Shown: positions 1 to 64,000 of the stretch, piece by piece
How positions within the stretch are numbered: position 1 is the stretch's first letter
How the letters are laid out: every line of letters starts with the position of its first letter
Source of the DNA: Pontibacter anaerobius
Lineage (GTDB): Bacteria; Bacteroidota; Bacteroidia; Cytophagales; Hymenobacteraceae
Length of the DNA: 64,000 nt
NCBI RefSeq assembly: GCF_026241195.1
Contig: NZ_JAPFQO010000004.1
Location: 62,001-126,000, forward strand
Direction of reading: 5' to 3'
Program-made: the position numbers and the translations under genes
Notes under the pieces: model-generated
The model's input: only the letters and a program-made list of their open reading frames with translations
The model's database searches: none
Told to the model about the DNA's origin: nothing

Positions 1-815
1 GCCCTGCCAAAACCTACTATACCAACGGCAACTTAGAAACGGAGGCTAACTATAGCAACGGCATGCTGCAAGGCTCTTATAAAACTTATTACGACAACGG
101 GCAGGTACAGACGGAGGTGCAGAACGTAGCCGGCGAAAAGCAGGGCACTTACAAGAGTTACTATCGTAGCGGCAAACTCAGCACCGAAGGGCAGTTTGCG
201 GCAGGCAAAATGAATGGCCCGGCCAAGTCATACTTCGAGGACGGCCAGCCACGAAGCATCATCAACTATAAAAACGGCGAGATAAACGGCACCGCCCAAT
301 ACTTTTATGAGGGCGGTAAGCTGAAGGAGGAGGTTACCGCCAGCGGCAATGGCACTTCCAGCAAGACACTGCGCTATTACCCATCTGGTAACCTACAGGC
401 AGAGGAGCAGCTGAAGGACAAGAAAAAGCACGGGAACTGGAAGGAGTATTATGACGCGCCAGGCAAAAAAGTAAGGCTCAGCGAGAACTACAAGGATAAC
501 CTGCTTACCGGTGAGCGCCTGAGCTACCACGATAATGGCCAGGTACAGGAGAAACATACGTACGAGAACGGAAAAATCATCGGCACCAGTTATACGTACT
601 ACCCGTCCGGCAAAGTAAAATCGGAGACAAACCACAAAGACGGACTGCGATTCGGGCCTTATAAGGCATACTTTGAGGACGGCAAAACCGAAGTGCTCGG
701 CCAGTTTAGAAACAACCGCGAAACAGGCACCTGGAAGTATCATAACCCGGAAGGCAAGGTGATAAAAACCCGCCTCTACCGCAACGGCCAGGTACTGGAA
801 GAGAAGGAGAAATAA
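1..815 (+). CDS. YwqK-family (MORN-like) repeat protein, 5' end outside the window
   Basis: The reading frame is open from the first bases (codons in phase with position 3) to a TAA at 813-815, so only the C-terminal 270 residues or so are visible. They consist almost entirely of a 22-24 residue repeat with the pattern G-x-(Y/W)-K-x-Y-(Y/F)-x-x-G-(Q/K), for example KTYYDNGQVQTE and KSYYRSGKLSTE, repeated about ten times. This is the pattern of COG2849, the YwqK-like antitoxin-like family related to MORN repeats, which is common and often exported in Bacteroidota. Function is unknown, and the antitoxin name is historical; no toxin is visible nearby. The start and any signal peptide lie upstream of the window. 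The ATG at 63 is internal and should not be taken as the start. Confidence 0.85.
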   Translation, partial: PAKTYYTNGNLETEANYSNGMLQGSYKTYYDNGQVQTEVQNVAGEKQGTYKSYYRSGKLSTEGQFAAGKMNGPAKSYFEDGQPRSIINYKNGEINGTAQYFYEGGKLKEEVTASGNGTSSKTLRYYPSGNLQAEEQLKDKKKHGNWKEYYDAPGKKVRLSENYKDNLLTGERLSYHDNGQVQEKHTYENGKIIGTSYTYYPSGKVKSETNHKDGLRFGPYKAYFEDGKTEVLGQFRNNRETGTWKYHNPEGKVIKTRLYRNGQVLEEKEK

Positions 816-834
816 GTATAAAAACCACTACAGT

Positions 835-863
835 AAAAGCACCCCCACCAGGGTGCTTTTTTT
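835..863 (+). terminator. Intrinsic terminator after the YwqK-like gene
   Basis: Arms 835-844 and 851-860 (AAAAGCACCC/GGGTGCTTTT) pair perfectly around a 6-nt loop and run into a T tract ending at 863. It lies 20 bases after the stop codon. Confidence 0.85.
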
Positions 864-984
864 GTTTTAAGCAATTTAAAGTGAGGAGCTTTTCTGTTGC
901 CGCCCCACATACGCCATGCATAACTATGATAGGTTGGCAGGCGTAACATCAGCAAAAGCAAAATATAAATTAAGAACTTAGAAG

Positions 985-2019
985 ATGACAACAGACGAAA
1001 ACAAACACAGCGGCACCCGCAAAGGTGTGGTCGTGATAACCGGGGCCTCTGCTGGTTTGGGCCGTGCCTGCGCCCGTGAGTTTGCCAAACAAGGGTATGA
1101 TGTTGGCCTGCTGGCCCGTGGTAAAGATGGTCTGGAAGGTGCCAAGCGCGAGGTAGAGGAAATGGGCCGCAAAGCTGTGTATGTGCAGGTAGATGTGGCC
1201 GATGCACAGGCAGTGGAAGACGCCGCTGCTAAAATAGAGCAGGAACTGGGCGAGATTGACGTGTGGGTGAATAACGCCATGAACAGTGTCTTCAGCCCGA
1301 TAAAGGAAATGGAGCCCGATGACTACAAGCGCGTGACCGATGTTACCTACCTGGGCCAGGTATACGGCACCCTCTCCGCCCTCAAGCGCATGCTGCCCCG
1401 CGACCGTGGCTCCATTGTGCTGGTGGGTTCGGCGCTTGCTTACCGCGGCATTCCGCTGCAGTCGGCTTACTGCGGGGCAAAGCACGCCATACAAGGCTTC
1501 TACGACTCGCTGCGTACCGAACTGATGCACGATAAAAGCAACGTGAAAGTGACGATGGTGCAGCTGCCTGCCATGAACACCACCCAGTTTGGCTTCGTGA
1601 AGTCACGGTTGCCAAACAAGCCACAGCCAATGGGTAAAATTTACCAGCCGGAACTAGCCGCCGAGATGATCGCGTATGCCGCCGAGCACGAGCGCCGCGA
1701 GTACCGTATGGGTTACCCTACCCTGCAAGCCATTATCGGCAACAAGATAGCCCCTTGGTTTGTAGACTACGTGCTGGCCAAAACCGGTTTTGAAGGGCAG
1801 CAAACTAACGAGCCTGAAGACCCGAACCGCAAAAACAACCTCTACGAACCCCTGCCCGGCGACCATGGCGCGCATGGCACTTTCGACGAAAAATCGACCT
1901 ATAGCAGCCCGCAAGCCTGGCTAAGCCTGCACCGCCAGGAGGTATTGACAGGCGCCGTGGCCCTTGGAGCCCTGGTGCTGGGCAGCCTTTTTGCCAACAA
2001 GTGGAATAATGAGGACTAG
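985..2019 (+). CDS. SDR family NAD(P)-dependent oxidoreductase with C-terminal membrane segment
   Basis: This 344-residue protein has a classical short-chain dehydrogenase fold. The cofactor motif TGASAGLG is at 19-26, NNA at 96-98, and the catalytic Ser149, Tyr162 and Lys166 (YCGAK) are all present, so it should be an active NAD(P)H-dependent oxidoreductase. It is about 80-90 residues longer than a minimal SDR. The extra C-terminal part ends in a hydrophobic stretch near 322-338 followed by a short charged tail, which suggests a tail-anchored inner-membrane protein. Such SDRs are usually annotated only by family, and the substrate cannot be read from the sequence. It stands alone between a terminator at 835-863 and a long hairpin at 2042-2086. 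Confidence 0.9.
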   Translation: MTTDENKHSGTRKGVVVITGASAGLGRACAREFAKQGYDVGLLARGKDGLEGAKREVEEMGRKAVYVQVDVADAQAVEDAAAKIEQELGEIDVWVNNAMNSVFSPIKEMEPDDYKRVTDVTYLGQVYGTLSALKRMLPRDRGSIVLVGSALAYRGIPLQSAYCGAKHAIQGFYDSLRTELMHDKSNVKVTMVQLPAMNTTQFGFVKSRLPNKPQPMGKIYQPELAAEMIAYAAEHERREYRMGYPTLQAIIGNKIAPWFVDYVLAKTGFEGQQTNEPEDPNRKNNLYEPLPGDHGAHGTFDEKSTYSSPQAWLSLHRQEVLTGAVALGALVLGSLFANKWNNED

Positions 2020-2041
2020 AAATCAAGCTGGATATACTTTA

Positions 2042-2086
2042 AACAGGAACGGGCCGCTACTTTTGAAGTAGCGGCCCGTTCCTGTT
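2042..2086. terminator. 21-bp perfect hairpin between convergent genes
   Basis: Arms 2042-2062 and 2066-2086 pair without a mismatch over 21 bp around a 3-nt loop. It lies between the SDR gene (stop at 2019) and the minus-strand cupin gene (stop at 2104), so it probably serves both directions. Neither side has a strong T tract, so termination is inferred from position and stability. Confidence 0.65.
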
Positions 2087-2103
2087 CAGGATGAGCATAG
2101 TAA

Positions 2104-2610
2104 CTAACGCCCGAAATCATCCTGCACGCGCACAATGTCTTCCTCGTCGGAGGGTTGGGTAGCATCGGTGTGCTGCCAGATCTCGGCCAGCACGCCCCAG
2201 TCTTTTAGGCCGACCAGGCGGTGGCGCTCACCCTGCTGCAGTTTAATCTGGTCGCCGGGATGCAGCGTCTTGTGTTCGCCTTCTTCATCTGTGTTGCTGG
2301 TTACCACAGCTACCGTACCGCTTACCGCACGCCATATCTCGGCCCTGCGGTGGTGGTACTGCCACGATAATCTTTTTCCAGGGGCTACTACCAGTATCTT
2401 AGGGCTCAGCTTGCCGGAAATCCTCAGGTCATCCACAGACATACCATCAAAGTAAGTATCTGCAAAGCGCTGGGCCTGAGCCTCGTCAATCACAAAAAAA
2501 CCTCCCCAGGGGCGTGAACGGTCCTGGCTTGCAATGTTAAACCCTTTTCCCCTCAGCTCCTGCTCCAAATCCTCAAAAAGCTTTGCCTTTGTTTCAGCTT
2601 CTGTTACCAT
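2104..2610 (-). CDS. Cupin protein related to type II mannose-6-phosphate isomerase
   Basis: The 168-residue product has the single-cupin core of the mannose-6-phosphate isomerase type II family. A PWGGF motif near 34 precedes the metal-binding strand with the HHRRAEIW motif (two His and a Glu), then a later His in GERHRLVG. Proteins like this are often labelled phosphoheptose isomerase in Bacteroidota, but the sequence only supports a metal-binding sugar-isomerase-like cupin. The N-terminal 30 residues are a charged helix not typical of the catalytic core. The gene is monocistronic: it converges on the SDR gene and lies downstream of the kinase gene's terminator at 2741-2775. Confidence 0.75.
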   Translation of the reverse strand: MVTEAETKAKLFEDLEQELRGKGFNIASQDRSRPWGGFFVIDEAQAQRFADTYFDGMSVDDLRISGKLSPKILVVAPGKRLSWQYHHRRAEIWRAVSGTVAVVTSNTDEEGEHKTLHPGDQIKLQQGERHRLVGLKDWGVLAEIWQHTDATQPSDEEDIVRVQDDFGR

Positions 2611-2740
2611 ATCTGTTTAATCGTTTGTTGCATCTATTTTAAGAAACGAATATAGTGATACGCATAAACCTAAATAAATATTCAACCAAATTTCCTGCGT
2701 CTGACTTAAGAAATTATACTTTTTCACTTCAGTTTAAAGC

Positions 2741-2775
2741 AAAAGAGCCCCTTCGGTAGCAGAAGAGGCTCTTTT
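2741..2775 (-). terminator. Terminator of the minus-strand kinase operon
   Basis: Arms AAAAGAGCC (2741-2749) and GGCTCTTTT (2767-2775) flank a 17-nt loop with partial internal pairing. The minus-strand copy ends in a short T run. It lies 37 bases past the stop of the hybrid kinase gene. Confidence 0.7.
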
Positions 2776-2811
2776 ATGATTAGAGAATGTCTGAGAATAT
2801 CCTATTCAAAA

Positions 2812-4533
2812 TCATACCTGGGTCCATTTCTTAAGCAAGGCCACTAACTCGCGGTTCGTAAAGGGTTTGCATAGGTGGTCATTCATGCCGGCGGCCATAC
2901 TTTTAGCAATATCGTCCTGGTAGGCATTGGCCGAAAACGCGATAATGGGAGTTGTGATATTAGCTTCCCGAAGCCTGTTCGTCGCCTCCATACCATCCAC
3001 ATCCGGCATCTGGATATCCATAAAAATAAGGTCGAACGGGTTAGCCAGCGCGATCTGCACTGCCTCCTCGCCGCCATGCGCCGTGGTTACCTGCGCACCA
3101 AAGCCCTCCAGCACCACTTGCATAAGCAGCACGTTAATATCATTATCGTCCACCACCAGTATGCTCATGTCCTTGTCCAGGGCAAAGTCTGGATCTATCT
3201 CATCGTCATCCAACGCAACGTCCTCCGCAGCCACCGTGTGAAGCCTCAGAGTAAACCAGATCGTAGCGCCGTCTGCACGGTCAGGTGCAGGGCTTACAAC
3301 CCCGATCTCCCCTCCCATCAGGTTTACCAGTTTCTTGCTGATGGTTAAGCCCAGGCCAAAACCGCCATACTTGCGCGTGGTGGACTGGTCTGACTGCGTA
3401 AAGGTATCGAACACAATGCCCTGCTTCTCCTCCGGAATGCCGATACCGGTATCTGTTACGGAAAACAGGAGTTCTACCGTGCCAGCATCCTTGCTTTCGG
3501 AGGCCACCGAACAATGTATGGCTATACTTCCAGTGTCCGTAAACTTGATGGCGTTGCTAACAAGGTTCACCAGCACCTGGTTTACCCGTACGGGATCGCC
3601 TATCACATGCTGCGGCACAGCCTCATCAAAAGTATAAGAAAAAGCCAGGTACTTGCCCTGCGCCAGGTGCTTATACGGCTCCAGGTGCGAGGCCACCGTT
3701 TCGCGCAGGTTAAACTGAATAGCCTCTATGGCTACCCTGTCCTGCTCGATGCGGTGTAGGTCCAGGATATCGTTGAGGAGTTTGGAAAGGTTGTTTCCCG
3801 ATGTTTTGATGAGGTTTACATACTTTGCCTGAGTTTCATTGAGCGCGGTGTCTTTGAGGATATTGGTAAAACCGATGATCCCGTTCAGTGGTGTCCGGAT
3901 CTCGTGGCTCATGCTGGATAGAAAGCTGCTCTTGGCCTCGTTGGCAGCCTCAGCTTTCTCCTTAGCCTCTTTCAGCTCCTGCTCTTTGGCCTTCAGCTCG
4001 GTTATATCCTTGGCAATAATCAAAATGCCGTCCTTCTCCTGCCTGTTGTTCCGGAGGTAAGACAAAGAGCAGGAAGTTGAAATGGTGCCGTCCTGCTGCA
4101 AGCGCAGCTTCAACTCCACATTCAGGCATTTTTCCTTTACCTCAAACTTTCGGAGTATCTCGTCCATGTTTGCGCTGCCTTTGTGCTGGAAAAGCTCCGC
4201 CACATGTAGGCCAACCAGATCGGCCTCTTTAAAGCCGGTGATCTCCTCAAAGGCTTCGTTCACATTCCGGATGGTATAGTCGGTATTCAGCACCAGCAGC
4301 ATGTCCACCACCCCCTGGTAGATGCTTTGCATAAAGTCGCGGGAAACGGTAGAACTCTTCAGCTCCTGCCCCAGCATGCTTACACCCGAGATAATAGCAT
4401 CTAACTCGTCGCCGGCCTCAGAAACATTCAGCTGATAGTCGAAGTTGCCATTGGCAACCTCAGCTATCAGTGTCATAATTTCCTCTATTCTTTCCTTAAG
4501 GACTTTCACGTTTTTGTTCTCTTTTGGCGGCAA
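2812..4533 (-). CDS. Soluble hybrid histidine kinase (HAMP-like/PAS/HisKA/HATPase/receiver)
   Basis: The 573 residues begin with a HAMP-like segment (about 12-60) but no membrane helix, then a PAS domain (65-180), a coiled coil, the H box with phospho-acceptor His210 in SMSHEIRTPLNG, an ATPase domain with the N box around 320-332, DTGIG (361-365) and GFGLGL (391-396), and a receiver domain from 457 with phospho-acceptor Asp506 in FMDIQMP. All catalytic residues are present. Without a transmembrane input it should sense something in the cytoplasm. It starts 6 bp after the stop of the alpha-oxoamine synthase fusion gene, so the two are almost surely co-transcribed and translationally linked. 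Synthase-plus-hybrid-kinase pairs are known for CqsA/CqsS and LqsA/LqsS; whether this pair works that way is inference. No DNA-binding output regulator is adjacent. Confidence 0.9.
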   Translation of the reverse strand: MPPKENKNVKVLKERIEEIMTLIAEVANGNFDYQLNVSEAGDELDAIISGVSMLGQELKSSTVSRDFMQSIYQGVVDMLLVLNTDYTIRNVNEAFEEITGFKEADLVGLHVAELFQHKGSANMDEILRKFEVKEKCLNVELKLRLQQDGTISTSCSLSYLRNNRQEKDGILIIAKDITELKAKEQELKEAKEKAEAANEAKSSFLSSMSHEIRTPLNGIIGFTNILKDTALNETQAKYVNLIKTSGNNLSKLLNDILDLHRIEQDRVAIEAIQFNLRETVASHLEPYKHLAQGKYLAFSYTFDEAVPQHVIGDPVRVNQVLVNLVSNAIKFTDTGSIAIHCSVASESKDAGTVELLFSVTDTGIGIPEEKQGIVFDTFTQSDQSTTRKYGGFGLGLTISKKLVNLMGGEIGVVSPAPDRADGATIWFTLRLHTVAAEDVALDDDEIDPDFALDKDMSILVVDDNDINVLLMQVVLEGFGAQVTTAHGGEEAVQIALANPFDLIFMDIQMPDVDGMEATNRLREANITTPIIAFSANAYQDDIAKSMAAGMNDHLCKPFTNRELVALLKKWTQV

Positions 4534-4539
4534 TTACCG

Positions 4540-6978
4540 TTAATCTTTTTCAATTACAAAGGTAGCCCCAATCATTTCCATCACAAAATTGTCTTTTGCC
4601 TGGTAATAGCCAACCTTGGCATATGGTGTTGCACCTATTTTTTTCTTCTCCATGGTGGCAGAAATGCCCATATTCACTTTTTTAACCCCCAAGCTGTTGG
4701 CTCTCTTGATCACCTGGTAAAGTGTCTGCCTGTATACTTTGTACTCCAGCAAGTAATCGTAGTCCATACCTATCAGCATGAAACTATACACCCCAGCAGC
4801 ATTTTTGTGGCAGAACCCCACTGATACAGCCTTTCTGTTAATGGAGTATTCCTCTTTAATGTACAAAACCACAAACTCCCACGCTTCGCTCTCATTGAGC
4901 AGGCGGAAGAGCTTTTCCGGGAAGAGAAAATTATTGATCGCAAAGTTGTTGCTTTTGACATACTTAAACAACCGGATCGCGTGCTGCAGTTCGTCTTCTG
5001 ACAAGCGGGACTTTACCTGCACATCATAGTAGGGCTCATACCTTTTGATCATTTGCACATAGTTCTCCCTGCCTTTCTTAGAAAGCCGCTTCCTGAACCC
5101 TTCTTCATCGGTCCAGCCCAGGTTCTCCACCACACAAGACTCCGGCAGGTCTAGTTTCACAAAGTCCTGCCCCACCATAAATTCATCCATTTCGGGGTCG
5201 TTGGCATCCAGGTCCCTGAGCAGTATGCTGGTGGCTTTCCCCTTCTCCTGGTCTTTGTACAGCTCACTCATCAGTGCCTTCAGAGCCTCTCTCCAATAAG
5301 GGCTTTCGCGGTCCAGGTACAGGTGGTTGCCCTCGGTAAACAAGCTGCCCAGCACCATTCCCGTGGAGGTGAGGTAGTAAGGGTTTGCCTCCCGCTCCCG
5401 CTCGATGGCTTTGGAAATGGAGGGTTGGGAAAACATGTCCTCTTTTAGCAAGCTAACCACCGCAAAGGTCATCAACACGGGCTTGCCCAGGGCGTCTTCC
5501 ACTACATAATACCGGAAGCCCCAATTATTCTCCTTCTCCGCATTGCCCGAAAAAGCCTCCTCCAAAAAGAAAAGCCCATCCCAATCGAACATGCCCCTAT
5601 GGCCCAGGTACTTGTTCCAGGGGGCTGCATCGAGCTCCCTGATGGTGGTGAAGCGTTTAACGGAAAGAGTATGGCCAACAACAAGCGCCGAATTGGCGGG
5701 TACTTGAGAAAGCGCAGGCATTTTAAACGCCTTCCGGATGTTGTCCTGCGTTTGGTTGGTGGCAGCCAGCGCCTCTTTAAAGTGCGTGTTCAGCTTGTTC
5801 ACCAGTTCCTCGATATCCTCATAGGAGTTAGAGAGAGATATGGTAATCCTGACGCCGATATTCTTGGCCGGTACCGCCGGGAAGGTAGCCAGGTTCACAT
5901 AAATGCCATCGTTTAGCAAGGCCTGCACCAGATGGTTGCCCATGTCCATGGTGCCGGTCCCGATAAAGAAGATCGGGCTTTCGCACTCGTGTACCAGCGG
6001 CAGGTCGGTTTGCCGGAGCAGGGTGTTGAAATAGGCGATCTTCTTCTGCAGCTCTTCCTGGTAAGTATAGATATCCTCGCTGAGGTGTATTTTGGCCGAG
6101 GCAATGGCCGCGCCCAGGGTAGCCGGCTCTATCTGCACCGAGAAAGTAAGCGGTCCGCCAAAGTTGTTCACCTTGTTGTACCACTCCTCGTTCGGGAACA
6201 GCGACAAACCTCCGCAGGCACCAAAGGCTTTCCCCAAATTTGCCGTCAGGATCATTTTACGGTAGAGGCCGTCCGGCATCTGGCTCATGGCATACCCGGT
6301 GCCGTTCCTGCCAGCCCAGCTCATGCCATGCGCGTCGTCTACGTACAAGTATAGCTGCTCATACTTCTCGGCCAGCGCAATCATGTCCTTGATAGGGGCA
6401 AAATCGCCATACATGGAGTACACGCTATCGGCCATGTACCAGATACGCCCGAACTTGCTCCGTTGCTTTTTAATGCGGTCTTCGAGCATCTCCAGGTTGT
6501 TGTGCCGGATCATCTCGACGGTAACGCCCTGGCTCAGGAGCTTTTTAACCGCCTCCTGCACGCTGGCATGCACCTGGTGGTCCAGGATAACGAGGTCGGA
6601 CTGCCGGATTATACTTGGGATAGTGGTGAGATGGGCCAGGGTGCAGTTTTTGGAAATGACCGCCGGCACCTGGTATAGCTGCCTCACCAAGCTCTCCAGC
6701 TCACTGTAGAGCGGGTTCGACACATAGGTGCGCGACATCGGGAACTGTGTGCCAAAGCGCTCGATCGCCTGGATGGCGCCACGTTTCACCTCCGGGTGAT
6801 GCTCCAGGCCCAGGTACCCGCAGGTGCCAAAGTGCAATACTTTCCTGCCGTTTAGCGTCAGGTGCTGCCCGCTAAGTGCCTCGTCTTCGGCGTGCAGGTG
6901 AATAATTCCCTTCTTTTTGGAAACAGCCAACACGGAGTCCACCGTATCTAAGATATTGTTGTGTCTTATTTTTGCCAC
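4540..6978 (-). CDS. Fusion of alpha-oxoamine synthase (PLP) and FemAB/GNAT-like acyltransferase
   Basis: The 812-residue protein joins two enzymes. Residues 1-420 are a fold-type I PLP enzyme of the alpha-oxoamine synthase family (BioF, serine palmitoyltransferase, CqsA): His137 in DHQVHAS stacks on the cofactor, DDAHG is at 214-218, and the Schiff-base Lys250 is in TANLGKAFG. These enzymes condense an amino acid with an acyl thioester and release CO2. Residues about 430-812 resemble a double-GNAT FemAB-like acyl- or aminoacyltransferase, without a motif I can assign firmly. The expected product is an N-acylated or otherwise modified alpha-amino ketone, such as a sphingoid or capnine-like lipid or a diffusible signal; which one is unknown. 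The start is GTG at 6978, with an in-frame stop just upstream. It heads an operon with the hybrid kinase. Confidence 0.85.
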   Translation of the reverse strand: MAKIRHNNILDTVDSVLAVSKKKGIIHLHAEDEALSGQHLTLNGRKVLHFGTCGYLGLEHHPEVKRGAIQAIERFGTQFPMSRTYVSNPLYSELESLVRQLYQVPAVISKNCTLAHLTTIPSIIRQSDLVILDHQVHASVQEAVKKLLSQGVTVEMIRHNNLEMLEDRIKKQRSKFGRIWYMADSVYSMYGDFAPIKDMIALAEKYEQLYLYVDDAHGMSWAGRNGTGYAMSQMPDGLYRKMILTANLGKAFGACGGLSLFPNEEWYNKVNNFGGPLTFSVQIEPATLGAAIASAKIHLSEDIYTYQEELQKKIAYFNTLLRQTDLPLVHECESPIFFIGTGTMDMGNHLVQALLNDGIYVNLATFPAVPAKNIGVRITISLSNSYEDIEELVNKLNTHFKEALAATNQTQDNIRKAFKMPALSQVPANSALVVGHTLSVKRFTTIRELDAAPWNKYLGHRGMFDWDGLFFLEEAFSGNAEKENNWGFRYYVVEDALGKPVLMTFAVVSLLKEDMFSQPSISKAIEREREANPYYLTSTGMVLGSLFTEGNHLYLDRESPYWREALKALMSELYKDQEKGKATSILLRDLDANDPEMDEFMVGQDFVKLDLPESCVVENLGWTDEEGFRKRLSKKGRENYVQMIKRYEPYYDVQVKSRLSEDELQHAIRLFKYVKSNNFAINNFLFPEKLFRLLNESEAWEFVVLYIKEEYSINRKAVSVGFCHKNAAGVYSFMLIGMDYDYLLEYKVYRQTLYQVIKRANSLGVKKVNMGISATMEKKKIGATPYAKVGYYQAKDNFVMEMIGATFVIEKD

Positions 6979-7044
6979 TTATTATGAGTAATATTGTGTT
7001 ATCAATGCCCGTAACACCTAAACTTTTAAATGTATTCGACTTGA
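6979..7044. promoter_or_regulatory. Short divergent promoter spacer
   Basis: Only 66 bp separate the GTG start of the synthase fusion from the ATG of the STAS-like gene on the other strand. The spacer is AT-rich and must carry promoters for both, so shared regulation is likely. I find no exact TAnnTTTG box in it. Confidence 0.35.
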
Positions 7045-7440
7045 ATGGCAAATTTCGAAAAAGATCCTAACATCAGATCAACGAAATATATAAACTTAGC
7101 TGTGGACAGCGGGATTTTGCACTGTGTTTATAAAGATATAGAGCTGCTGGACCTGGATATAGCTAAAATCTGTGTGCAGGACCGCCTGGAGTTTATCCAA
7201 GGGGAAACCTATCCCAGCTTGTTTGATATCACCAGAATAAAGCAATCGACAAAGGAAGCGCGGGACTACCTGGCCAACGAAGGCAATGACTTTGTGTCTG
7301 CCAGTGCCATCCTGATCAGCTCGCCGATGGTGAGAATGTCCGCCAATTTCTTTATCCAGGTAAACAAGCCCAAAAACCCCACGCGCATGTTTACCAACCA
7401 ACCTAGTGCGCTGGAGTGGCTGGCGCAGTATAAAGGCTAA
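7045..7440 (+). CDS. STAS/SpoIIAA-like small protein (DUF7793-type)
   Basis: This is a 131-residue soluble protein without signal peptide or membrane segment. The pattern, an N-terminal beta-rich half, a central SLFDITRIKQSTKEARDYLA helix region and a C-terminal AxxWLxxY ending, matches small Bacteroidota proteins with a STAS/SpoIIAA-like fold, which I recall as DUF7793. Such folds act as phosphorylatable switches or lipid binders in other families, but no conserved phospho-Ser is obvious here. It is transcribed divergently from the synthase/kinase operon across a 66-bp spacer, which links it to that module by position only. The protein from 7692-8135 has the same general layout and may be a distant paralogue. 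Confidence 0.6.
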   Translation: MANFEKDPNIRSTKYINLAVDSGILHCVYKDIELLDLDIAKICVQDRLEFIQGETYPSLFDITRIKQSTKEARDYLANEGNDFVSASAILISSPMVRMSANFFIQVNKPKNPTRMFTNQPSALEWLAQYKG

Positions 7441-7691
7441 TCCGCCGTCTCCCTCCCCTACCTCTTCCAGGGCACAAACTTATTTTTCTCGAACCTGACT
7501 TACACCTGGCTATACTTGGCACAGGCTGGCGGTTATACGCTATACTTTGCTTAAACTAGGCGGGGCGCCGTGTTTATACTTGCAAAACCAACGCAGCAGT
7601 AGATTTGTGGGATAGACCACAGGGGGTTGTTTATACTTGTTGTGATGGGATTTTCACTTTAAAAAGACTCTCTGTATAATCCGATTACACC

Positions 7692-8135
7692 TCAAGGCGT
7701 CTGCAGCCATTCTTTAGCCTCCTCATCCGTCAGGAAATACTGGGTTTCAAAGTATGGCGTTGCCTTTTTTACCTTATCGTCCAGCACCTCGTTTGTAAGT
7801 TGTTGCAGCATATTGGTAGACGATACGATAGCCAGCCGCTGCAGCTCGCTTCTGGAGATGACCTCTATCGAGATTTTTGCCAGCCATGCCTGGTCATCCA
7901 TGGTCAGTACACCCATCCGCTGGTTGTTTACCAATAGCTTTTTCAAGTTGTGAGCCAGAAGTATACGCCCTGTTTCTTCAATACCAAACCTGTACTCCTG
8001 GCTGACCACCGGCCGTAACCAGCGCACGGACAGCGCATCAATGCCTTTGTCAAGTATAATCTCCACAAAGTCAGTTGCATACATTATGAGTACACTATCT
8101 TCTGCCACCTTTATTTTTACACTGTTATAAGACAA
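7692..8135 (-). CDS. Second STAS/SEC14-like small protein
   Basis: The 147-residue product has no signal or membrane segment. Its layout resembles the 7045-7440 protein: a beta-rich start, a central region with helical IEETGRILLAHNLKKLLVNN and a C-terminal DEEAKEWL that mirrors the ALEWL ending of the neighbour. This suggests the STAS-like fold seen in other Bacteroidota signalling clusters; exact function is unknown. The 250-bp gap to the 7045-7440 gene holds four TATACTT motifs and no other gene. It is likely a single-gene transcription unit, with its promoter in 8136-8300. Confidence 0.5.
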   Translation of the reverse strand: MSYNSVKIKVAEDSVLIMYATDFVEIILDKGIDALSVRWLRPVVSQEYRFGIEETGRILLAHNLKKLLVNNQRMGVLTMDDQAWLAKISIEVISRSELQRLAIVSSTNMLQQLTNEVLDDKVKKATPYFETQYFLTDEEAKEWLQTP

Positions 8136-9014: not shown

Positions 9015-9079
9015 GTTAATTGGCACCAGGAGTTCCAGCGACCGAGTGAGGTATGGTTCCTCGTACTAGCATTAAGTAT

Positions 9080-21133: not shown

Positions 21134-22717
21134 TTAAAATGGCGGTTCCTCATCGAAGCTAGAAGTAGGGAAACCTCCCCCGCTGCCGCCATCGTTCATG
21201 CGGCTACCTAAGCGTATGGCGCCCGGTGTTTCTGTATCAAAGGTACTGTTTGGCAGCGCATTAAAGCCACCCATACCATCACCTCCGCCGAAATCATCAT
21301 CCAGGTTGGTAAACTTAGTGTACTTTCCGATAAATTTCAACTGCACGTTCTCCAGCGAGCCGTTACGGTGCTTGGCAATGATCACCTCTCCCACGCCTGC
21401 CGTCGGGTTGCCCATCTCGTCTTCGGTGATGCCGTAATACTCCGGACGGTACAGGAAGCACACCATGTCGGCATCCTGCTCTATCGAACCGGATTCACGA
21501 AGGTCAGATAGCTGCGGGCGTTTGTCGCCGCCACGGGTCTCCACGGCACGGCTCAACTGCGACAGCGCAATAACCGGCACGTTCAGTTCCTTCGCCAGCA
21601 TCTTCAGGGCTCGTGAAATGGAGGCAATCTCCTGTTCACGGTTACCGCCACCCTTGCCGTCCGCATTACCGCTCATCAGCTGCAGATAGTCAATAATGAT
21701 CATCTGGATGTCGTACTGCGCCTTGAGACGGCGGCACTTAGTACGCAACTCACGGATGGAAAGTCCTGGGGTATCATCAATAAAGATCGGCGCCTCGGTA
21801 AGCTTTGCGATTTTATGGTTGAGCTGTGCCCACTCATACTCTTCCAGGCTGCCTTTCTTTATTTTCTCAGATTCCAGTTCTGCCTCGGATGAGATGAGAC
21901 GATTCACCAGCTGCAGCGAGGACATCTCCAGCGAGAATATCGCCACACCTTTGCCAAAGTCCACAGCGGCGTTGCGCATCACCGAAAGCACGAAGGCCGT
22001 TTTACCCATCGCAGGACGGGCGGCAAGTATAACCAGGTCAGATTTCTGCCAGCCGGACGTAACGCGGTCCAGCGCCGTCAGGCCAGTAGGCACACCGGTC
22101 AGACCGTCAGACTGCTTGCGCTTCTCCTCCAGTTCCTTGATGGCTTGGTGCATGAGCGATCGCATGTCGTCGAAGTTCTTGCGGATGTTGGATTCCGATA
22201 CCTCGTACAGCTTTGCCTCGGTCTTGTCGAGCAGCTCGAAAACGTCGGTGGTATCCTCGAAGGCGCTGGAAAGCACCTCGGATGAAATAGAAATGAGATC
22301 GCGCTTGATGGAGTTCTCCGTGATGATACGGGCGTGGTACTCGATGTTGGCGGCGGAGTTTACGCGTGTGGTCAGCTGCGTTACATAGTAAGCGCCCCCG
22401 GCCAGCTCCAGCTCCCCGTGCTCCCGCAGTTCCTGCGTCACTGTCAGGATATCGATTGGCTCCGATTTATCGAACAGGGCCAGAATTGCCTTAAAAATAC
22501 GCTGATGCGCCTCTTTGTAAAAACTCTGCGGACGCAGAATATCAATTACGTTCGTAAGCGCGTCTTTCTCCAGCATCAGAGCGCCTAACACGGCCTCTTC
22601 CAAATCAAGTGCCTGTGGCGGCTTCTTGCCTAGCTCCGAAATAACGGGGGCTTTTTTCTGCCATCCGTTGCGGTTGCCTGCTGGCCGCACATTCATTTTC
22701 ATCTCCTCCATAAGCAC
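21134..22717 (-). CDS. dnaB: Replicative DNA helicase DnaB
   Basis: The 527 residues have the DnaB N-terminal helicase-collar domain (about 35-140), a linker helix and the RecA-like hexameric motor with Walker A RPAMGKTA near 233-240, Walker B MIIIDYLQLM, and the H4 arginine-finger region LSQLSRAVETR. Length is as expected for Bacteroidota and there is no intein. The C-terminal 60 residues are Gly- and Asp-rich and disordered-looking. The start could be the ATG at 22717 or the third ATG at 22699. It diverges from mpl across a spacer with three DnaA-box-like sites, so its expression could be tied to DnaA. Confidence 0.97.
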   Translation of the reverse strand: MLMEEMKMNVRPAGNRNGWQKKAPVISELGKKPPQALDLEEAVLGALMLEKDALTNVIDILRPQSFYKEAHQRIFKAILALFDKSEPIDILTVTQELREHGELELAGGAYYVTQLTTRVNSAANIEYHARIITENSIKRDLISISSEVLSSAFEDTTDVFELLDKTEAKLYEVSESNIRKNFDDMRSLMHQAIKELEEKRKQSDGLTGVPTGLTALDRVTSGWQKSDLVILAARPAMGKTAFVLSVMRNAAVDFGKGVAIFSLEMSSLQLVNRLISSEAELESEKIKKGSLEEYEWAQLNHKIAKLTEAPIFIDDTPGLSIRELRTKCRRLKAQYDIQMIIIDYLQLMSGNADGKGGGNREQEIASISRALKMLAKELNVPVIALSQLSRAVETRGGDKRPQLSDLRESGSIEQDADMVCFLYRPEYYGITEDEMGNPTAGVGEVIIAKHRNGSLENVQLKFIGKYTKFTNLDDDFGGGDGMGGFNALPNSTFDTETPGAIRLGSRMNDGGSGGGFPTSSFDEEPPF

Positions 22718-30068: not shown

Positions 30069-30131
30069 GTTATATTTGGAAATCAGTACAAGTATACCTG
30101 TTGCAGGGTATGAGTTTAAAGCGCCGCTGGA

Positions 30132-30151
30132 TTTATACTTTGAAGTATAAA
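30132..30151. repeat. Palindrome of the 7-mer (TTTATACTT/AAGTATAAA)
   Basis: Two copies of the overrepresented motif face each other with a 2-nt loop: TTTATACTT at 30132-30140 and AAGTATAAA at 30143-30151. It lies between bcp and the transketolase gene. Confidence 0.75.
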
Positions 30152-30213
30152 CCAGACAATTAGAAACCCGGCAACAAAGCAATTATACCGTTTAACCAAA
30201 ACAATAAACTAAC

Positions 30214-33588: not shown

Positions 33589-33646
33589 TTACTTGCTGTT
33601 TACCCAAGGGAGATCTGCTATTTCAAGCTAAAGTATAAACCTTTTC

Positions 33647-34192
33647 TTGCGCAAGTATTTATACTTGTGTCTTTTATGGTGTTGAGTTTGCAATGCAACT
33701 GTAGCCCTATTTTATACTTTGACGATGATTTATACCTGTCGATTTATACTTTGACCGCTGCTTCCTTTAACTTGAGCTAAGCTACCCGCTGTTCCGGACA
33801 TCCTTGTCCGGAACCTTTCTGCCGCGGATTTCCCAATCCGCATACTTATACTTCCCTAGCTGCTGCTTTACACAAACTATACTTACTAGTTACTGCTCAT
33901 CCTCAGTCTTACAAACCTACCGTTTCACCTCTGGCCTTGGCTCCCTCCAGCCCGGGAGGGCTCGTCTTCCCGCATCGCGCGGTGTTCCCTCCTGCGCCAG
34001 GGCGCTGCCGCTCGCGCGGCACCGGATCTCACAAGGCGCTCAACGGAAAGACTGGGATCAGATTCGATAGCCATCACTATACTACTTGAACCGGACTCCC
34101 TCTCCTGTTTTGGGGGTAGGGGCCCTCGAGAAAAGGAGAGGGCTGGGGAGAGGTGAAATTCCCCTCCCCGGCGGGGGCGGGGGTGGGTTAAT
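33647..34192 (-). repeat. Modular hairpin-rich intergenic repeat, copy B (inverted)
   Basis: Read on the minus strand, this matches copies A and C: the C/G-rich block (34190-34095), the GATCCCAG...TAAGACTGAGGAT block (34053-33899), GCGGATT...AATCCGC and TTCCGGACA...TGTCCGGAA (about 33840-33794), and the CAAGTAT-aa-ATACTTG hairpin (33667-33652). The order equals copy C. The remaining 813-bp gap 33533-34345 holds no gene; small ORFs there are frame artefacts of the repeat. Confidence 0.8.
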
Positions 34193-41653: not shown

Positions 41654-41670
41654 TGTGAGAGATTTAAGTG

Positions 41671-41720
41671 GGTTTATACTTGAAGAGACGCAATACATTG
41701 CGTCTCTTCAAGTATAAACC
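41671..41720. terminator. 23-bp perfect hairpin built on a TATACTT/AAGTATA inverted pair
   Basis: Arms 41671-41693 and 41698-41720 pair perfectly around TACA. Each arm contains the overrepresented 7-mer. Position after the aminotransferase gene suggests a terminator. Confidence 0.8.
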
Positions 41721-41721
41721 T

Positions 41722-42325
41722 GCCCCTCCGAGGAGGGGAATCATACCTCTCCACAGCCCTCTCCTTTTCTCGAGGGCCCCTACCCCCAAAACAGGAGAGG
41801 GAGTCCGATTCATGTTGCATCAGCTTAGGCTATCGAACTGATCCCAGTCTTTCCGTTGAGCGCCTTTGGAGTTTTTCCGGTGCCGAGCGGGAGCGAAGGC
41901 AGCCCGAGGCACGAGGGCAGGAAAAGCTCCCAGCGCGATGCGGGAAGACGAGCCCTCCCGGGCTGGAGGGAGCCAAGGCCGGAAGTGCAACGAGTCGCTT
42001 GTAAGACTGAGGATGAACAGTAGCAAAATAGGATAGCTTGAGTCAAGCTACAGGAAGCAGCAGCTAGGGAAGTATAAGTATGCGGATTAGGAAATCCGCG
42101 GCAGAAAGGTTCCGGACAGGGATGTCCGGAACAGCGGGATAAAGTATAGCTAAAGTGCTAAGTATGGCTTTGCAAGCCAGTTGAGTTACAAACTCAACAC
42201 CATAAAAGGACACAAGTATAAATACTTGCGCCAGGAAGGGATAAAACAAGCTGCTCGTAAGAGTGAGGATCAACAGCAGCTAGTAAGGATAACTTGGTCC
42301 GGTTGCGGGAAGCAGCAGCTATGAA
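41722..42325 (+). repeat. Modular hairpin-rich intergenic repeat, copy C
   Basis: Modules in order: C/G-rich block with CTCTCCTTTTCTCGAGGGCC (41759 on), GATCCCAG...TAAGACTGAGGAT block (41840-42014), GCGGATT...AATCCGC and TTCCGGACA...TGTCCGGAA (42081-42131), GGCTT-tgc-AAGCC, GTTGAGTT-aca-AACTCAAC (42181-42199) and CAAGTAT-aa-ATACTTG (42213-42228), then a second partial copy of the GAGGATCAACAGCAGC segment (42263 on). The whole 41654-42541 gap holds no gene; the small ORFs there do not agree in frame with those of the other copies. Confidence 0.8.
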
Positions 42326-42345
42326 AGTGTAAATGAACAAGTATA

Positions 42346-42390
42346 AAAGTATAGCCAAAGTATAGCCAAAGTATAGCCAAAGTATAAACC
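42346..42390 (+). repeat. Tandem 11-bp repeat AAAGTATAGCC
   Basis: Three perfect units (42346-42356, 42357-42367, 42368-42378) and a diverged fourth (42379-42390). Each contains the window-wide AAGTATA motif. Confidence 0.9.
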
Positions 42391-42541
42391 CGAACAGCAA
42401 TCAGGAAGTATAGCGGGAGCTTAAGTACAGCCCATCCCCCTTTACAAACCCAACACTACAGCAGCAACCGCAGCGGTGATTGCACGTAAAAACCGGGGCT
42501 ATACTTTACTCCTGAGGTATAAGCACATCAACCGGAACCTT

Positions 42542-52555: not shown

Positions 52556-54934
52556 ATGTTGAAAAATCACTCCCGGATCAGGCTGAAACACGCCTGCGCA
52601 TTACCCTTGCTGCTGGCGCTGCTGCTGCTTACCGGCTGCAGCGTAACTAAAACCGTACCCGAGGATGATGCCCTGTTTACAGGCTATGAGGTAAAGGTGG
52701 AAGGTGAGAACGATAGCAGCAACCGCAGTGCCGACCTGGAGACAGAACTAAGCGCGACCGTACGTCCGGAACCCAACGCATCCATACTTGGGCTGCGTCC
52801 TAAGCTGGCTATTTACAACGCATTCTACACAGAGAAAGAGAAAGGGCTGAGCCACTGGATCATGACAAAGCTTGGGGAGCCCCCTGTGCTCATCTCGCAG
52901 GTTGATACCGGCAGCTTAAGTCAGGTGATGAGCAACCGGCTACATAACCGGGGCTATTTTAACAACTTCGTAAGCAGCACCACCGAGGTAAAGAAAAAGA
53001 AAGCCACCATTAACTGGACAGCCCGTGTGGGGGAACCGTATCGCCTGCGCAACATAAAGTATACTTTAAATGACTCGCTGGCGGTACACCAGGCCATAGA
53101 GCAGGCAAAGGCAGAGTCGCTGTTGAAGCCAGGCGAACCCTATGACCTGAGTATAATGACGGACGAGCGCATTCGGATTGACGGCACCCTAAAGAACAAA
53201 GGCTACTACTACTTCAGCCCTGATCTGCTAATTTTTAGCGTGGATACCACCGTAGGCAACCGCCAGGCCGATGTGCTGATGCGCGTTAAGCAAATGGCGG
53301 CGTCCAGGGCGCTGCAACCTTATGAACTGGATGATATCTTCATCTTTGCCAACTACTCGCTCGGCGACAGCCTCTCCACCAACGACACCATCGATTTTCA
53401 AGGATATCATTATATCCCCAACGAGAACTATGTGCGGGCGCGACACCTGTTGGACGGCGTATTTCTGGAGCAGGACAGCCTTTATACCCGCGAAGACCAT
53501 CTGCTTACGATCAAGCGTCTCTCCGGCCTTGCCGCATACAAATACGTGAACATCGACTATGAGCCTGACACCACCGGGAGCGGAAAACTGGATGCCTTTG
53601 TATACCTCACCCCATCCCTAAAAAAATCGTTGCGGGCGGAGGCGCAGATGGTAACCAAGTCAAACAATTTTGCAGGACCAGGCCTGAAGGTGTCTTTCCG
53701 GAACCGGAATACCTTTAAAGGGTCTGAGGTTCTTACCGTGGAATTCACGGGCAGCTTTGAATCGCAAGTGGGGGGCACGGGCACTGGTACGGCCCCTGAA
53801 GGCGTGGAAGTCCCGGAAAACACGAACCTCACCTCCTATGAGTTAGGAGTACAGGCCAACCTGGCCATTCCGCGGATTGTATCACCGTTTAACCTACGCA
53901 ACCTCCGCACCGAGTTTGTACCGCAAACCCGCATCGGCCTTGGGTTTAACTTCCTGAGCCGCTCCGGCTACTACCGCATGAACTCCTACAACGCCTCTTA
54001 TGGCTATTCCTGGCGGCCAAAAGAAACATTGACCTTTGATGCTACCCCGATTAACCTGCAGTATGTGCGGCTCACGGATAGCACAGAGGTTTTCTCGGAC
54101 TTCCTGGAGGATAACCCTTTTTTACAACGTAGTTTTGAAAGTCAGTTTATTGTAGGCTCTATTTACCAGCTAACCTACACCACCCAAATGTATAAAGACC
54201 GGACCAGCAACATCTTTGATAAGGTGACGCTGGATATTTCCGGCAACCTGGTGAGCGGCATACAGTCGTTGGCAGGAGCCCACACCCCTACAGACGATAA
54301 TCCCCGTACCTTATTTGGGGATAGGTATGCGCAATATGCGTTGTTGGATAACGACTTCCGGCATTATTTAAACTTAAGTGAAGAAAGCCAGCTGGTGTGG
54401 CGCCTGGTAACGGGTGTGGGCTATTCTTACGGCAACTCCTCCACCATGCCCTATGTCAAGCAGTTCTCTATCGGAGGTCCTAACAGTATCCGGGCTTTCC
54501 GGGCCAGGAGTATTGGCCCGGGCAGTTATGAGCCGACAACAACAGAAACGTTCTCGTTTTTTGACCAGACCGGCGACATCAGACTGGAGACCAATTTAGA
54601 ATACCGTTTCCCTATTTTCGGGTTCTTTAAGGGCGCTGTGTTTACAGATGCAGGTAATATATGGCTGCTGCGCCAAACCTACAGAGATGACGGAACCCCG
54701 GTAAAACCTGGCGGTACCTTCGAAGCCAATAACTTTCTGAATGAGCTGGCGATAGGCACGGGCGTTGGCTTGCGCATCGATGTGGAGTTCTTCGTGATCC
54801 GACTTGACTTAGGTATACCTGTACGCGTGCCTTACCTGCCCAAAGGCGAACGCTTCGTGCTTTCAGACTTTAACGGCAGCTTCAGCGGCGAGAACAGCAT
54901 GGTGCTCAATATCGCCATCGGCTATCCTTTCTAA
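52556..54934 (+). CDS. tamL: TamL, Omp85-type lipoprotein partner of TamB
   Basis: The ATG at 52556 gives 792 residues with a lipoprotein signal (LLLTGC, Cys28). Three or so POTRA-like domains follow (about 30-400) and the C-terminal 380 residues are an Omp85 beta-barrel with the conserved IGGPNSIRAFRARSIGPG motif near 640-657 and a final aromatic residue (IAIGYPF). Bacteroidota replace TamA with this lipoprotein form, TamL. It is 4 bp downstream of tamB, and the two are one operon. It sits in the outer membrane. Confidence 0.92.
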   Translation: MLKNHSRIRLKHACALPLLLALLLLTGCSVTKTVPEDDALFTGYEVKVEGENDSSNRSADLETELSATVRPEPNASILGLRPKLAIYNAFYTEKEKGLSHWIMTKLGEPPVLISQVDTGSLSQVMSNRLHNRGYFNNFVSSTTEVKKKKATINWTARVGEPYRLRNIKYTLNDSLAVHQAIEQAKAESLLKPGEPYDLSIMTDERIRIDGTLKNKGYYYFSPDLLIFSVDTTVGNRQADVLMRVKQMAASRALQPYELDDIFIFANYSLGDSLSTNDTIDFQGYHYIPNENYVRARHLLDGVFLEQDSLYTREDHLLTIKRLSGLAAYKYVNIDYEPDTTGSGKLDAFVYLTPSLKKSLRAEAQMVTKSNNFAGPGLKVSFRNRNTFKGSEVLTVEFTGSFESQVGGTGTGTAPEGVEVPENTNLTSYELGVQANLAIPRIVSPFNLRNLRTEFVPQTRIGLGFNFLSRSGYYRMNSYNASYGYSWRPKETLTFDATPINLQYVRLTDSTEVFSDFLEDNPFLQRSFESQFIVGSIYQLTYTTQMYKDRTSNIFDKVTLDISGNLVSGIQSLAGAHTPTDDNPRTLFGDRYAQYALLDNDFRHYLNLSEESQLVWRLVTGVGYSYGNSSTMPYVKQFSIGGPNSIRAFRARSIGPGSYEPTTTETFSFFDQTGDIRLETNLEYRFPIFGFFKGAVFTDAGNIWLLRQTYRDDGTPVKPGGTFEANNFLNELAIGTGVGLRIDVEFFVIRLDLGIPVRVPYLPKGERFVLSDFNGSFSGENSMVLNIAIGYPF

Positions 54935-61456: not shown

Positions 61457-61459
61457 AAA

Positions 61460-62874: not shown

Positions 62875-62877
62875 TCC

Positions 62878-62968
62878 GTAGCACGACACACGTATCAGGT
62901 ATCAAGACTTTCTTTAAAAGATTAAACCTGAGTTGATAATAAGGTCGTGCTACTTGATACGAGATACG
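62878..62968. repeat. Interleaved inverted repeats (pseudoknot-like arrangement)
   Basis: Arm L1 GTAGCACGAC (62878-62887) pairs with R1 GTCGTGCTAC (62944-62953). Arm L2 (62891-62906, CGTATCAGGTATCAAG) pairs with R2 (62953-62968, CTTGATACGAGATACG) over 14 of 16 positions. The order L1-L2-R1-R2 makes a nested hairpin impossible. Confidence 0.7.
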
Positions 62969-62987
62969 TAATACGCACCCCATAACT

Positions 62988-64000
62988 ATGCACCTTAACT
63001 TTTACTTTCTACGGCAACTGTCGCAGGCACTCAAGCATAAGCTTGTAGGTATGCAGGTGGTGACGGCTTTCAGCCAGAACAAGGCGGAGCTTATACTTGG
63101 CTTTACCCGTGAGCAGGAGGAGCTATACATCAGGGCACAATTGGGGTCGCATTTCACCTCCCTCTCCTTCCCCACTGCGTTTAAAAGAGCCCGCGCCAAC
63201 ACCATAGAGCTGCTGCAGGAGATGCAGGGGCAGACCGTGGAGGACGTGGTGCAGCACCAGAACGAGCGCAGCTTTTATCTTCTACTTTCGGGGGGCTACC
63301 TGCTGCTGTTCAAGATGTTCGGCAACCGCTCCAACATTGTGCTGTACCAGCATGGGGAGGCGTTAAGGCTTTTCCTGAAAAAATTTCCGTCTGATGCCGA
63401 ACTGGACCCGCTGCAGATGGATAGGCCGCTGCTGCAGAACTTCGCGGCTTTTGCCGCTGCCGACGGAAACCTGCGCAAAGTATACCCTACCTTTGGCGAC
63501 GTGCCCGCTTTATACTTAGAGGAGCGTGGTTACAGTCAGGCAACCTTGGTAGAGAAATGGGAGCTGGTGCAAAGTATGCTGGATGTGCTGGAAGCACCAG
63601 AAGTATACTACATTATCCGTTTAAAAGGCAAGCTGCGCCTCTCGCTGCTGCCGCTCGGCGAGGTGGTTTATACTTACCCGGATCCGCTGGAGGCTTCGAA
63701 TCAGTTTACCCGTTTATACTTATCCGAAACAGGATTTAAGCGCCAGTACGAGCAGGCACAGCAGCAGCTGGAGCGTAAGCGCCACGTTACCAATACAGTG
63801 ATGGAGCAAAGCGAGGAGAAGCTGCAGGAGCTGCGCAACAACCGCTCCTATTCCCAGACTGCTGACGTCATCATGGCCAACCTCACTAATATTCCGCCGC
63901 GTGCCTCCGAGGTAGAGCTCTACGACTTTTACACCGACCAGAACCGTACCTATACTTTAAAACAGAACGAAACGCCACAAAAGTTTGCCGAGCGCCTCTA
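62988..64000 (+). CDS. NFACT (Rqc2/RqcH-like) family protein, 3' end outside the window
   Basis: The ATG at 62988 opens a frame that stays open to the window end, giving 337 residues. It begins MHLNFYFLRQLSQALKHKLV, then LILGF, and matches the N-terminal NFACT domain of RqcH/FbpA-like proteins, which bind stalled 50S-peptidyl-tRNA and, in many bacteria, add Ala tails. A coiled coil (about 250-285, EQAQQQLERKRHVTN and onwards) follows, as in the family. The RNA-binding C-terminal part is missing here. It sits alone after the interleaved repeat. Confidence 0.85.
   Translation, partial: MHLNFYFLRQLSQALKHKLVGMQVVTAFSQNKAELILGFTREQEELYIRAQLGSHFTSLSFPTAFKRARANTIELLQEMQGQTVEDVVQHQNERSFYLLLSGGYLLLFKMFGNRSNIVLYQHGEALRLFLKKFPSDAELDPLQMDRPLLQNFAAFAAADGNLRKVYPTFGDVPALYLEERGYSQATLVEKWELVQSMLDVLEAPEVYYIIRLKGKLRLSLLPLGEVVYTYPDPLEASNQFTRLYLSETGFKRQYEQAQQQLERKRHVTNTVMEQSEEKLQELRNNRSYSQTADVIMANLTNIPPRASEVELYDFYTDQNRTYTLKQNETPQKFAERL

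Follow-up and report, generated by a model that had tools for sequence, protein, structure and literature searches.

The stretch of DNA considered here, hereafter the window, comprises 64,000 nucleotides from Pontibacter anaerobius (GTDB lineage Bacteria; Bacteroidota; Bacteroidia; Cytophagales; Hymenobacteraceae; assembly GCF_026241195.1, contig NZ_JAPFQO010000004.1, positions 62,001 to 126,000), and the element in question is a word of seven letters, AAGTATA (TATACTT on the opposite strand), that is scattered over genes and spacers alike. The window holds a dnaB open reading frame (ORF; 21134..22717, minus strand; TIGR00665, E 1.7e-166), which lies outside the signal itself and was used for finding named relatives: its product is 97% identical to the DnaB of Pontibacter litorisediminis, the ten named loci that rank next all belong to Pontibacter or to the related Botryobacter, and a type IX secretion system (T9SS) sorting domain in the window agrees with Bacteroidota. 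The genome of the window (G000 among the genomes compared) amounts to 4.65 Mb in 29 contigs. Over the window (1..64000), the word occurs 146 times, with a mean spacing of 435 bases and with 70 forward and 76 reverse copies; 92 of the 146 lie wholly within long ORFs and 52 wholly outside them. The entire genome contains 4,586 + 4,224 = 8,810 copies, as against 188 + 197 = 385 copies of the reversed word, which is 23 times rarer.

When considering such numbers, a statistical reality check is in order: could composition or codon choice produce them? The sequence-only reading, an earlier inspection of the window, had proposed an approximately twentyfold excess inside and outside genes, with hand counts of about 19 copies in 1-10,000 and about 19 in 14,000-20,050. 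The actual counts are 20 and 19, and the excess is borne out, since for both strands of the window 6.2 copies are expected from composition, 5.0 from an order-1, 8.9 from an order-2 and 23 from an order-3 Markov model. An order-5 model comes close to the data (61.5 and 67.5 expected by strand), and the same reading had named such an agreement as grounds for abandoning the excess. Numerically the agreement exists, but it does not refute the excess because the model is built from 6-mers that are mostly motif (AAGTAT and AGTATA are inflated by the word itself). The order-5 model was therefore rejected as a null, and synonymous codons were shuffled instead, with proteins and codon usage preserved and with genes taken as long ORFs picked greedily, without a trained gene finder. 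In 464 kb of the genome, coding DNA contains 546 copies as compared to 64 expected under this null (8.5-fold), and the enrichment holds in all six frame placements, i.e. in every frame and in both orientations, which rules out codon bias as the cause. The spacers of the same 464 kb contain 349 copies as compared to 29.6 expected from an order-2 model; genes have 1.39 copies/kb and spacers 4.88. The 8-mer AAGTATAA reaches 27 times its expectation in 484 kb. The genome-wide excess of AAGTATA is thus confirmed as real.

The word is sharply delimited. Among its single-letter variants in this genome, A7G alone stands out with a strong enrichment, 5.9-fold in genes and 5.5-fold in spacers; for A2G, G3C and A1T, the enrichment is 1.6-2.0-fold in genes and spacers alike, and the remaining changes are near 1 or uneven. 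At position 8, A or G is preferred, followed by C, and T is avoided. In the six sets with enough data, forms with a changed T4 or A5 reach at most 3.9-fold, as compared to 10- to 51-fold for the exact 8-mer. The suspicion, likewise raised in the sequence-only reading, that the copies might sit only inside longer repeats was not borne out, as there is little information in the flanks outside positions -1 and +7 to +9.

Some copies form local arrangements. The inverted pair of TATACTT at 41675 and AAGTATA at 41710 belongs to a hairpin with a long extra stem (41666..41725; -41.4 kcal/mol; 13 inner and 4 outer further complementary bases), located directly 3' of an aminotransferase ORF (Aminotran_3) that ends at 41653; another pair, TATACTT at 30134 and AAGTATA at 30143, folds with -11.6 kcal/mol (30126..30160). 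There are also six forward copies at 42339..42412 (plus strand; 42339, 42347, 42358, 42369, 42380 and 42406), four of them at 11-base spacing, a group of four spacer copies in both orientations at 33631..33751 (33631, 33660, 33713 and 33745), and the palindrome AAGTATACTT, formed by two overlapping copies at 53057..53066, with a second example at 39430-39439. Over 484 kb of the genome, such palindromic overlaps number 18, spacer pairs 8-60 nt apart comprise 32 inverted and 58 direct ones, and eight inverted pairs have long stems of 12 paired bases or more, seven of these pairs being in spacers, with the one at 41666-41725 among the eight. Thus, the inverted pairs at gene ends that had been pointed out earlier (41671-41720 and 30132-30151) do exist and fold, but no general preference for them is seen.

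The distribution of the word along the genome is uneven in several respects. AT-rich as the word is, its observed/expected ratio in genes climbs with the G+C content, from 1.4 below 40% to 12.7 above 56%. The density is 0.4/kb in a surface-polysaccharide cluster, and the plasmid-like second contigs of three genomes with the AAGTATA word have 0.30, 0.18 and 0.52/kb as compared to 1.26, 1.40 and 0.80/kb in samples of the main contigs, with a chance level of 0.12-0.18; the word is scarce on two of the three. Spacers between convergent genes are the densest (8.06/kb), followed by tandem (4.79) and divergent ones (3.94). Strand use is even over 22 stretches of the genome of the window (chi-square 21.1 on 22, p 0.52). 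As a separate observation, a small foreign-looking island lies near comEC in the same genome (locus L246, 14844-16247): two ORFs with 29-34% GC and no Pfam match, in a motif-free stretch from 14,006 to 17,378.

The word has relatives within the genus. In 37 Pontibacter genomes (that of the window and 36 others), AAGTATA numbers from 786 to 11,818 copies, with the reversed word below about 1,000, and several genomes low in AAGTATA carry a different word. AGGTATA was first met in Pontibacter sp. BT731, in a scan of 80 named loci; in 98 kb of that genome, AGGTATAG occurs 76 times in coding DNA as compared to 2.9 expected. AACTATA was found in samples of other low genomes, e.g. G018, with 78 copies as compared to 2.9 in 20 kb. 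When the corresponding 8-mers were counted over the whole of 50 Pontibacter genomes, with more than 1,500 copies required, 20 had AAGTATA(A/G) alone (hereafter AAG), 12 had AGGTATAG alone (AGG), four had AACTATAG alone (AAC), three had both AAG and AAC, and 11 had none of the three. These dialects, separated by one or two letters, are nearly exclusive of each other, with a small excess of more than one word in G007 and some others. Two of the 11 have weaker candidate words of their own, GGTATAA in G036 (21 vs 2.6 in 20 kb) and TATATAA in G060 (65 vs 14.1 in 60 kb). A tree of the ComEC protein was built for 49 genomes, G009 being left out as no open frame spans its match, and labelled by hand from the counts (907 AACTATAG also occur in G095, which bears the AAG label, and 2,125 AAGTATAA in G074, which bears the AAC label). 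On this tree, the 11 AGG rows form one clade (96/99), the AAC genomes together with two mixed AAG/AAC ones form another (100/100), and AAG occurs in a 15-genome group (91/96) plus several deep lineages; the labels change 11 times, as compared to 26.0 in shuffles. Thus, the dialects follow phylogeny, the word having been swapped largely clade by clade.

Local repeats of short words were seen as well. In G027, AGGTAGA belongs mainly to a local tandem repeat with a unit of 8 bases, and the words of G038 and G039 were taken as local repeats, with spacing inspected for G039, where GGAGTAC (locus L123, contig C1 from 3716) makes up a large tandem repeat with 218 copies in 20 kb, arranged in pairs with a spacing of about 72 bases. 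In G020 (C1:1944098-1946633), AGGTATAG recurs every 64-69 bases, with 39 listed copies, in a CRISPR-array-like arrangement that inflates the forward count of this genome.

How do the copies arise, and how do they vanish? Codon alignments of 26 genes from two neighbourhoods (at least 35% identity and at least 70% of the query covered; the genome pairs are non-independent) indicate that, among orthologs of the same dialect, copies are retained more often than random 7-mers: 35.5 vs 21.5% for AAG, 68 vs 34% for AGG and 46 vs 30% for AAC. In genomes with a different one of the three dialects, or with none of them, retention falls to 1-7% as compared to 13-19% for random 7-mers, and at least four positions are changed in 26-53% of the copies as compared to 12-18% of the random words. 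Gaps affect 0-7% of the copies and 1.4-3.8% of random windows. These retention and gap data lead to the conclusion that substitution at permissive sites gives rise to the copies, which persist as long as the dialect lasts. The single-letter differences between AAG and motif-less genomes number 6, 7, 6, 2, 6, 11 and 3 at positions 1 to 7.

Three other origins were considered and set aside. Spread by longer repeats is ruled out by the uninformative flanks and the few gaps at copies; a dispersed mobile repeat, akin to repetitive extragenic palindromes (REP) or miniature inverted-repeat transposable elements (MITE), would be expected to show conservation beyond the word and gaps in relatives, and neither is seen; and Vsr-like short-patch repair, which should leave a single mutant form depleted and a single change predominant, does not fit the lowest observed/expected ratios of single mutants (0.73 in genes, 0.53 in spacers) and the spread of changes over all seven positions.

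The 8-mer AAGTATAA is in excess in Pontibacter alone among 150 genomes of the family, reaching at most about 2.4 times the control elsewhere (genus g24). Other words appear outside the genus. The counts of ACGTAGCA and the pattern tallies cover whole genomes; the remaining words outside Pontibacter come from samples of 20-102 kb. In coding DNA, Rhabdobacter roseus has 136 AAGTACC as compared to 18 expected, and Spirosoma profusum 126 ACGTAGC as compared to 13.7; of the five genomes of genus g25 that were analysed, two have ACCTAGG, G062 with 76 copies as compared to 5.0 in 60 kb and G071 with 31 as compared to 1.8 in 20 kb. Among 390 genomes of the order, ACGTAGCA peaks in genus g33, which is probably Spirosoma (G422, 5,462; G475, 1,756; G450, 1,625; G388, 479; G379, 376; controls 122-223), and is second-highest in genus g122 (G461, 522; G456, 401); small counts go with high ratios in a few more genomes (e.g. 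G293, 141 vs 35). The pattern A-N-(G/C)-T-A fits most of these words, although not that of G060, and the words of Spirosoma, Rhabdobacter and the further genus may be related to the Pontibacter signal. The words of Rhabdobacter and g25 could also have another cause because the palindrome CCTAGG is part of ACCTAGG, and GTAC is part of the Rhabdobacter words. No convincing dispersed word was seen among 20 order-level samples, from which one 1.5-kb sample was skipped; AACATTG of Dyadobacter luticola (52 vs 11.5 in coding DNA) was set aside as too weak.

Two further loci deserve mention. The dnaB locus of Hymenobacter sediminis (L018) has 31 GGGGTAG over 21 kb, whereas four further samples of 20 kb each, drawn from possibly mobile contigs of 63-128 kb, have 2, 5, 4 and 2; perhaps, GGGGTAG is a further word missing from small contigs. 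In the metagenome-assembled genome Bacteroidia bacterium Co_bin.384 (L029), 23 copies of GGAGAAT/ATTCTCC are spread over 21 kb (22 coding vs 3.6 expected), perhaps another dispersed word.

As to the machinery through which DNA could be taken up, ComEC and DprA family matches are present in all 50 Pontibacter genomes, and a ComEA-like protein of 304-346 aa with helix-hairpin-helix (HHH_3) repeats in 49, being broken in G022. In this genome, comEC, dprA and the ComEA-like gene are all broken, with five genes near comEC intact, and its word density of 1.00/kb is the second lowest of the 12 AAG-clade genomes compared. It keeps one of six ancestral-looking sites, as compared to 3/5, 3/8, 3/6, 4/6 and 1/2 in its siblings, which points to decay, although the numbers are too small. 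The tie between word density and loss of competence genes is suggestive only. In G009, comEC and dprA are broken as well, and most neighbours of comEC look intact in both G009 and G022.

Taken together, these data make it rather probable, in our judgment, that the word acts throughout the genome as a signal for DNA uptake, in dialects specific to clades. The following scenario can be envisaged. A sequence-selective putative DNA receptor, probably not a type IV pilin, would prefer fragments bearing the local word; these would enter via the ComEA-like/ComEC route and recombine via DprA and RecA. Word-bearing alleles would be re-imported more often, so that copies would accumulate by point mutation at permissive sites, a kind of molecular drive, and upon a shift of the receptor preference by one letter, copies of the old word would decay and the new word would accumulate, giving rise to dialects. 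The receptor, the uptake bias, the drive and competence itself are what we infer here. A more far-reaching version appears somewhat easier to doubt than to accept: that Cytophagales possess their own uptake-signal system, with a putative receptor and no type IV pili, with at least three dialects in Pontibacter (AAGTATR, AGGTATAG and AACTATAG), joined probably by ACGTAGC in Spirosoma, AAGTACC in Rhabdobacter and ACCTAGG in another genus of the family, most of them fitting A-N-(G/C)-T-A, and that the dialects would act as recombination barriers between species.

The likeness to known uptake signals, suggested already in the sequence-only reading, holds as far as genome signatures go: it is supported by the codon-independent excess, the dialects that follow phylogeny, the origin of copies by substitution, the depletion in low-GC genes and plasmid-like contigs, the peak in convergent spacers and the lack of strand polarity. 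In Neisseriaceae, DNA uptake sequences (DUS) form dialects around a fixed core, with one two-dialect genome and with relatives that have none (Frye et al. 2013, PMC3630211). Shared with that system are thousands of copies of a short non-palindromic word in genes and spacers, phylogeny-following dialects that differ by single letters outside a fixed core, a two-dialect genome, word-less relatives and hairpin pairs at gene ends; the Pontibacter words differ from it in phylum, in length (7-8 letters vs 10-12) and in the fixed letters (T-A at positions 4-5 vs CTG), as well as in lacking a preference for inverted pairs, in the few one-mismatch forms, in that no pilus motor was recognised and in that uptake is a prediction from sequence. 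With the uptake signal sequences (USS) of Pasteurellaceae (Redfield et al. 2006, PMC1626085), they share subclade-specific words, an origin by substitution rather than insertion and occasional recent defects of competence genes; unlike them, the Pasteurellaceae signals are longer (AAGTGCGGT, ACAAGCGGT), with AT-rich flanks and with an experimentally determined uptake preference (PMC1626085). Within Bacteroidota, natural transformation of Riemerella depends on ComEC, DprA and a helix-hairpin-helix protein, with no pilus machinery named among the essential genes in the parts of the reports used here (PMC8459023, PMC7965970, PMC8383284), and R. columbina prefers its own DNA (PMC7965970). Pontibacter, of the same phylum, also has ComEC, DprA and ComEA-like genes with helix-hairpin-helix repeats; it differs in that no strong word is established in the portions of the Riemerella reports used (k-mers of about 0.5/kb; PMC8459023, PMC7965970, PMC8383284) and in that the Riemerella machinery includes DUF5689, which is missing from the genome of the window and from 28 of 50 Pontibacter genomes. 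The pattern in the genomes matches known uptake signals except for the pilus, the preference for inverted pairs and the small halo of one-mismatch forms.

A number of observations count against an uptake signal. Single-mismatch forms other than A7G are hardly enriched, and Pontibacter differs in this from Neisseriaceae, where one-off DUS outnumber exact ones (PMC3630211). Inverted pairs are not preferred, so that the many inverted pairs at terminators, a trait of DUS, are not seen here; about 10% of uptake sequences are present as inverted repeats (PMC1939737), and an abundance of such pairs is no strictly defining feature of DUS. AGG copies are retained above random words in two mixed AAG+AAC genomes (22 vs 16%). 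In-place replacement between dialects does not exceed the raw control (5.2 vs 4.8%, AAG to AGG); in windows with a single difference, the dialect letter is over-represented for AAG to AGG, AAG to AAC and AAC to AAG (43-46% vs 15-17%) and not for AGG to AAG (18 vs 17%). Because the raw rate equals the control and the AGG to AAG direction lacks the excess, in-place re-spelling is not claimed. One of the three 20-kb pieces of the second contig of G020 holds 20 of its 31 copies, a chromosome-like density. About nine Pontibacter genomes without a clear word still carry the ComEC, ComEA-like and DprA genes; the lowest word density (0.82/kb) belongs to G020, with comEC and dprA intact, and G009, with both of these genes broken, has 5,041 AGGTATAG. 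A type IV pilus motor was not recognised in the 50 Pontibacter genomes, where T2SSE matches cover about 60 of 370 positions and exceed the cut-off, by at most 1 bit, in three genomes (pilins were not searched). Finally, DUF5689, found in 22 of the 50 genomes and not in that of the window, was rejected as an obligate receptor.

Could another process account for the word equally well? The main rival, which we regard as unlikely, is an origin akin to that of the HIP1 words of cyanobacteria: a solitary DNA methyltransferase would read the word, methylation-dependent mismatch repair would create and keep it, and dialects would be changes of specificity. Methyltransferase genes are often mobile, unlike the inheritance of dialects, which spans deep divergence; moreover, the precursors differ at all seven positions, and the plasmid-like contigs in the same cells are mostly without the word, though recent arrival would also explain this. 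The sharp specificity, with little mismatch halo, does suit an enzyme, and the tolerated changes are mainly at the ends of the words (positions 7-8, and 1 in some dialects), just as HIP1 and the alternate HIPs, which accompany cognate methyltransferases, show one-letter deviations at word ends (Elhai 2015, PMC4390886). HIP1 further resembles the Pontibacter case as a genome-wide word replaced by another in some relatives, with relaxed end letters, but HIPs are GC-rich palindromes tied to methyltransferases (PMC4390886), and AAGTATA is AT-rich and asymmetric. Since AAGTATA, like AGGTATAG and AACTATAG, is not palindromic, the likeness to HIP1, which had been put beside that to DUS in the sequence-only reading, turns out to be the weaker of the two.

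A word that steers a recombination or segregation enzyme, in the manner of Chi or of the FtsK orienting polarizing sequences (KOPS), with dialects tracking enzyme evolution, seems very unlikely. Sites of this type are usually polarised along the replichore, and the density of about 1.9/kb would be high for Chi; the even strand use, established over 22 stretches of one genome (p 0.52), shows no such polarity. Chi sites are, nevertheless, likewise short, non-palindromic, over-represented and different between species, as is also noted in PMC3630211, and a mark of self would be expected to be depleted in foreign-like genes and plasmid-like contigs, as the word is. Other DNA-binding roles, such as sites of a nucleoid protein or signals of transcription end, are at least as improbable: the density in spacers of convergent genes and the real hairpins at some gene ends would agree with them, but ORFs contain 92 of the 146 copies of the window, copies in genes occur in every frame and in either orientation, and inverted pairs are not preferred. 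It seems highly unlikely, finally, that there is no dedicated system at all and that composition, codon choice, mutation bias or copying of small repeats yields the excess. The order-5 model does reproduce the window counts, and small tandem clusters and hairpins exist; however, codon shuffling fails to explain the excess in every frame, the genome has 23 times fewer copies of the reversed word, low-GC genes are depleted of an AT-rich word, and there is no longer repeat in the flanks, few gaps and retention within dialects.

To our knowledge, experimentally shown uptake signals come only from Neisseriaceae and Pasteurellaceae, both of which use type IV pili. If the word of Pontibacter is an uptake signal, this would be a third such system, in another phylum and apparently without a pilus motor; sequence-reading DNA receptors would then include a new class, and self-DNA recognition would have arisen independently. 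The genus, with its several close dialects, its mixed and motif-less genomes and the one in which three competence genes are broken, would be a natural experiment on how a signal starts, changes and decays. A practical prediction is that DNA with the local word should transform these bacteria better; the signal would be new for this bacterial group if uptake experiments confirm it. No report of it was found in the open-access literature, most subscription papers and bioRxiv preprints being outside the scope of that search, which is hence no proof of novelty.

Three further features of the window are unrelated to the word. An ORF of 812 aa (4540-6978, minus strand) matches BioF/serine palmitoyltransferase-like enzymes over its first 400 residues, with no NCBIfam match listed for its second half. 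An ORF of 900 aa (17191-19893, minus strand) has D-alanine--D-alanine ligase matches in both halves (e.g. residues 2-219 and 580-889) and is likely a tandem ligase fusion. At 30214-33532, the first and the last part of transketolase are matched by separate ORFs (30214-31071 and 32576-33532, respectively), with a VWA-domain ORF (31120-32511) in between.

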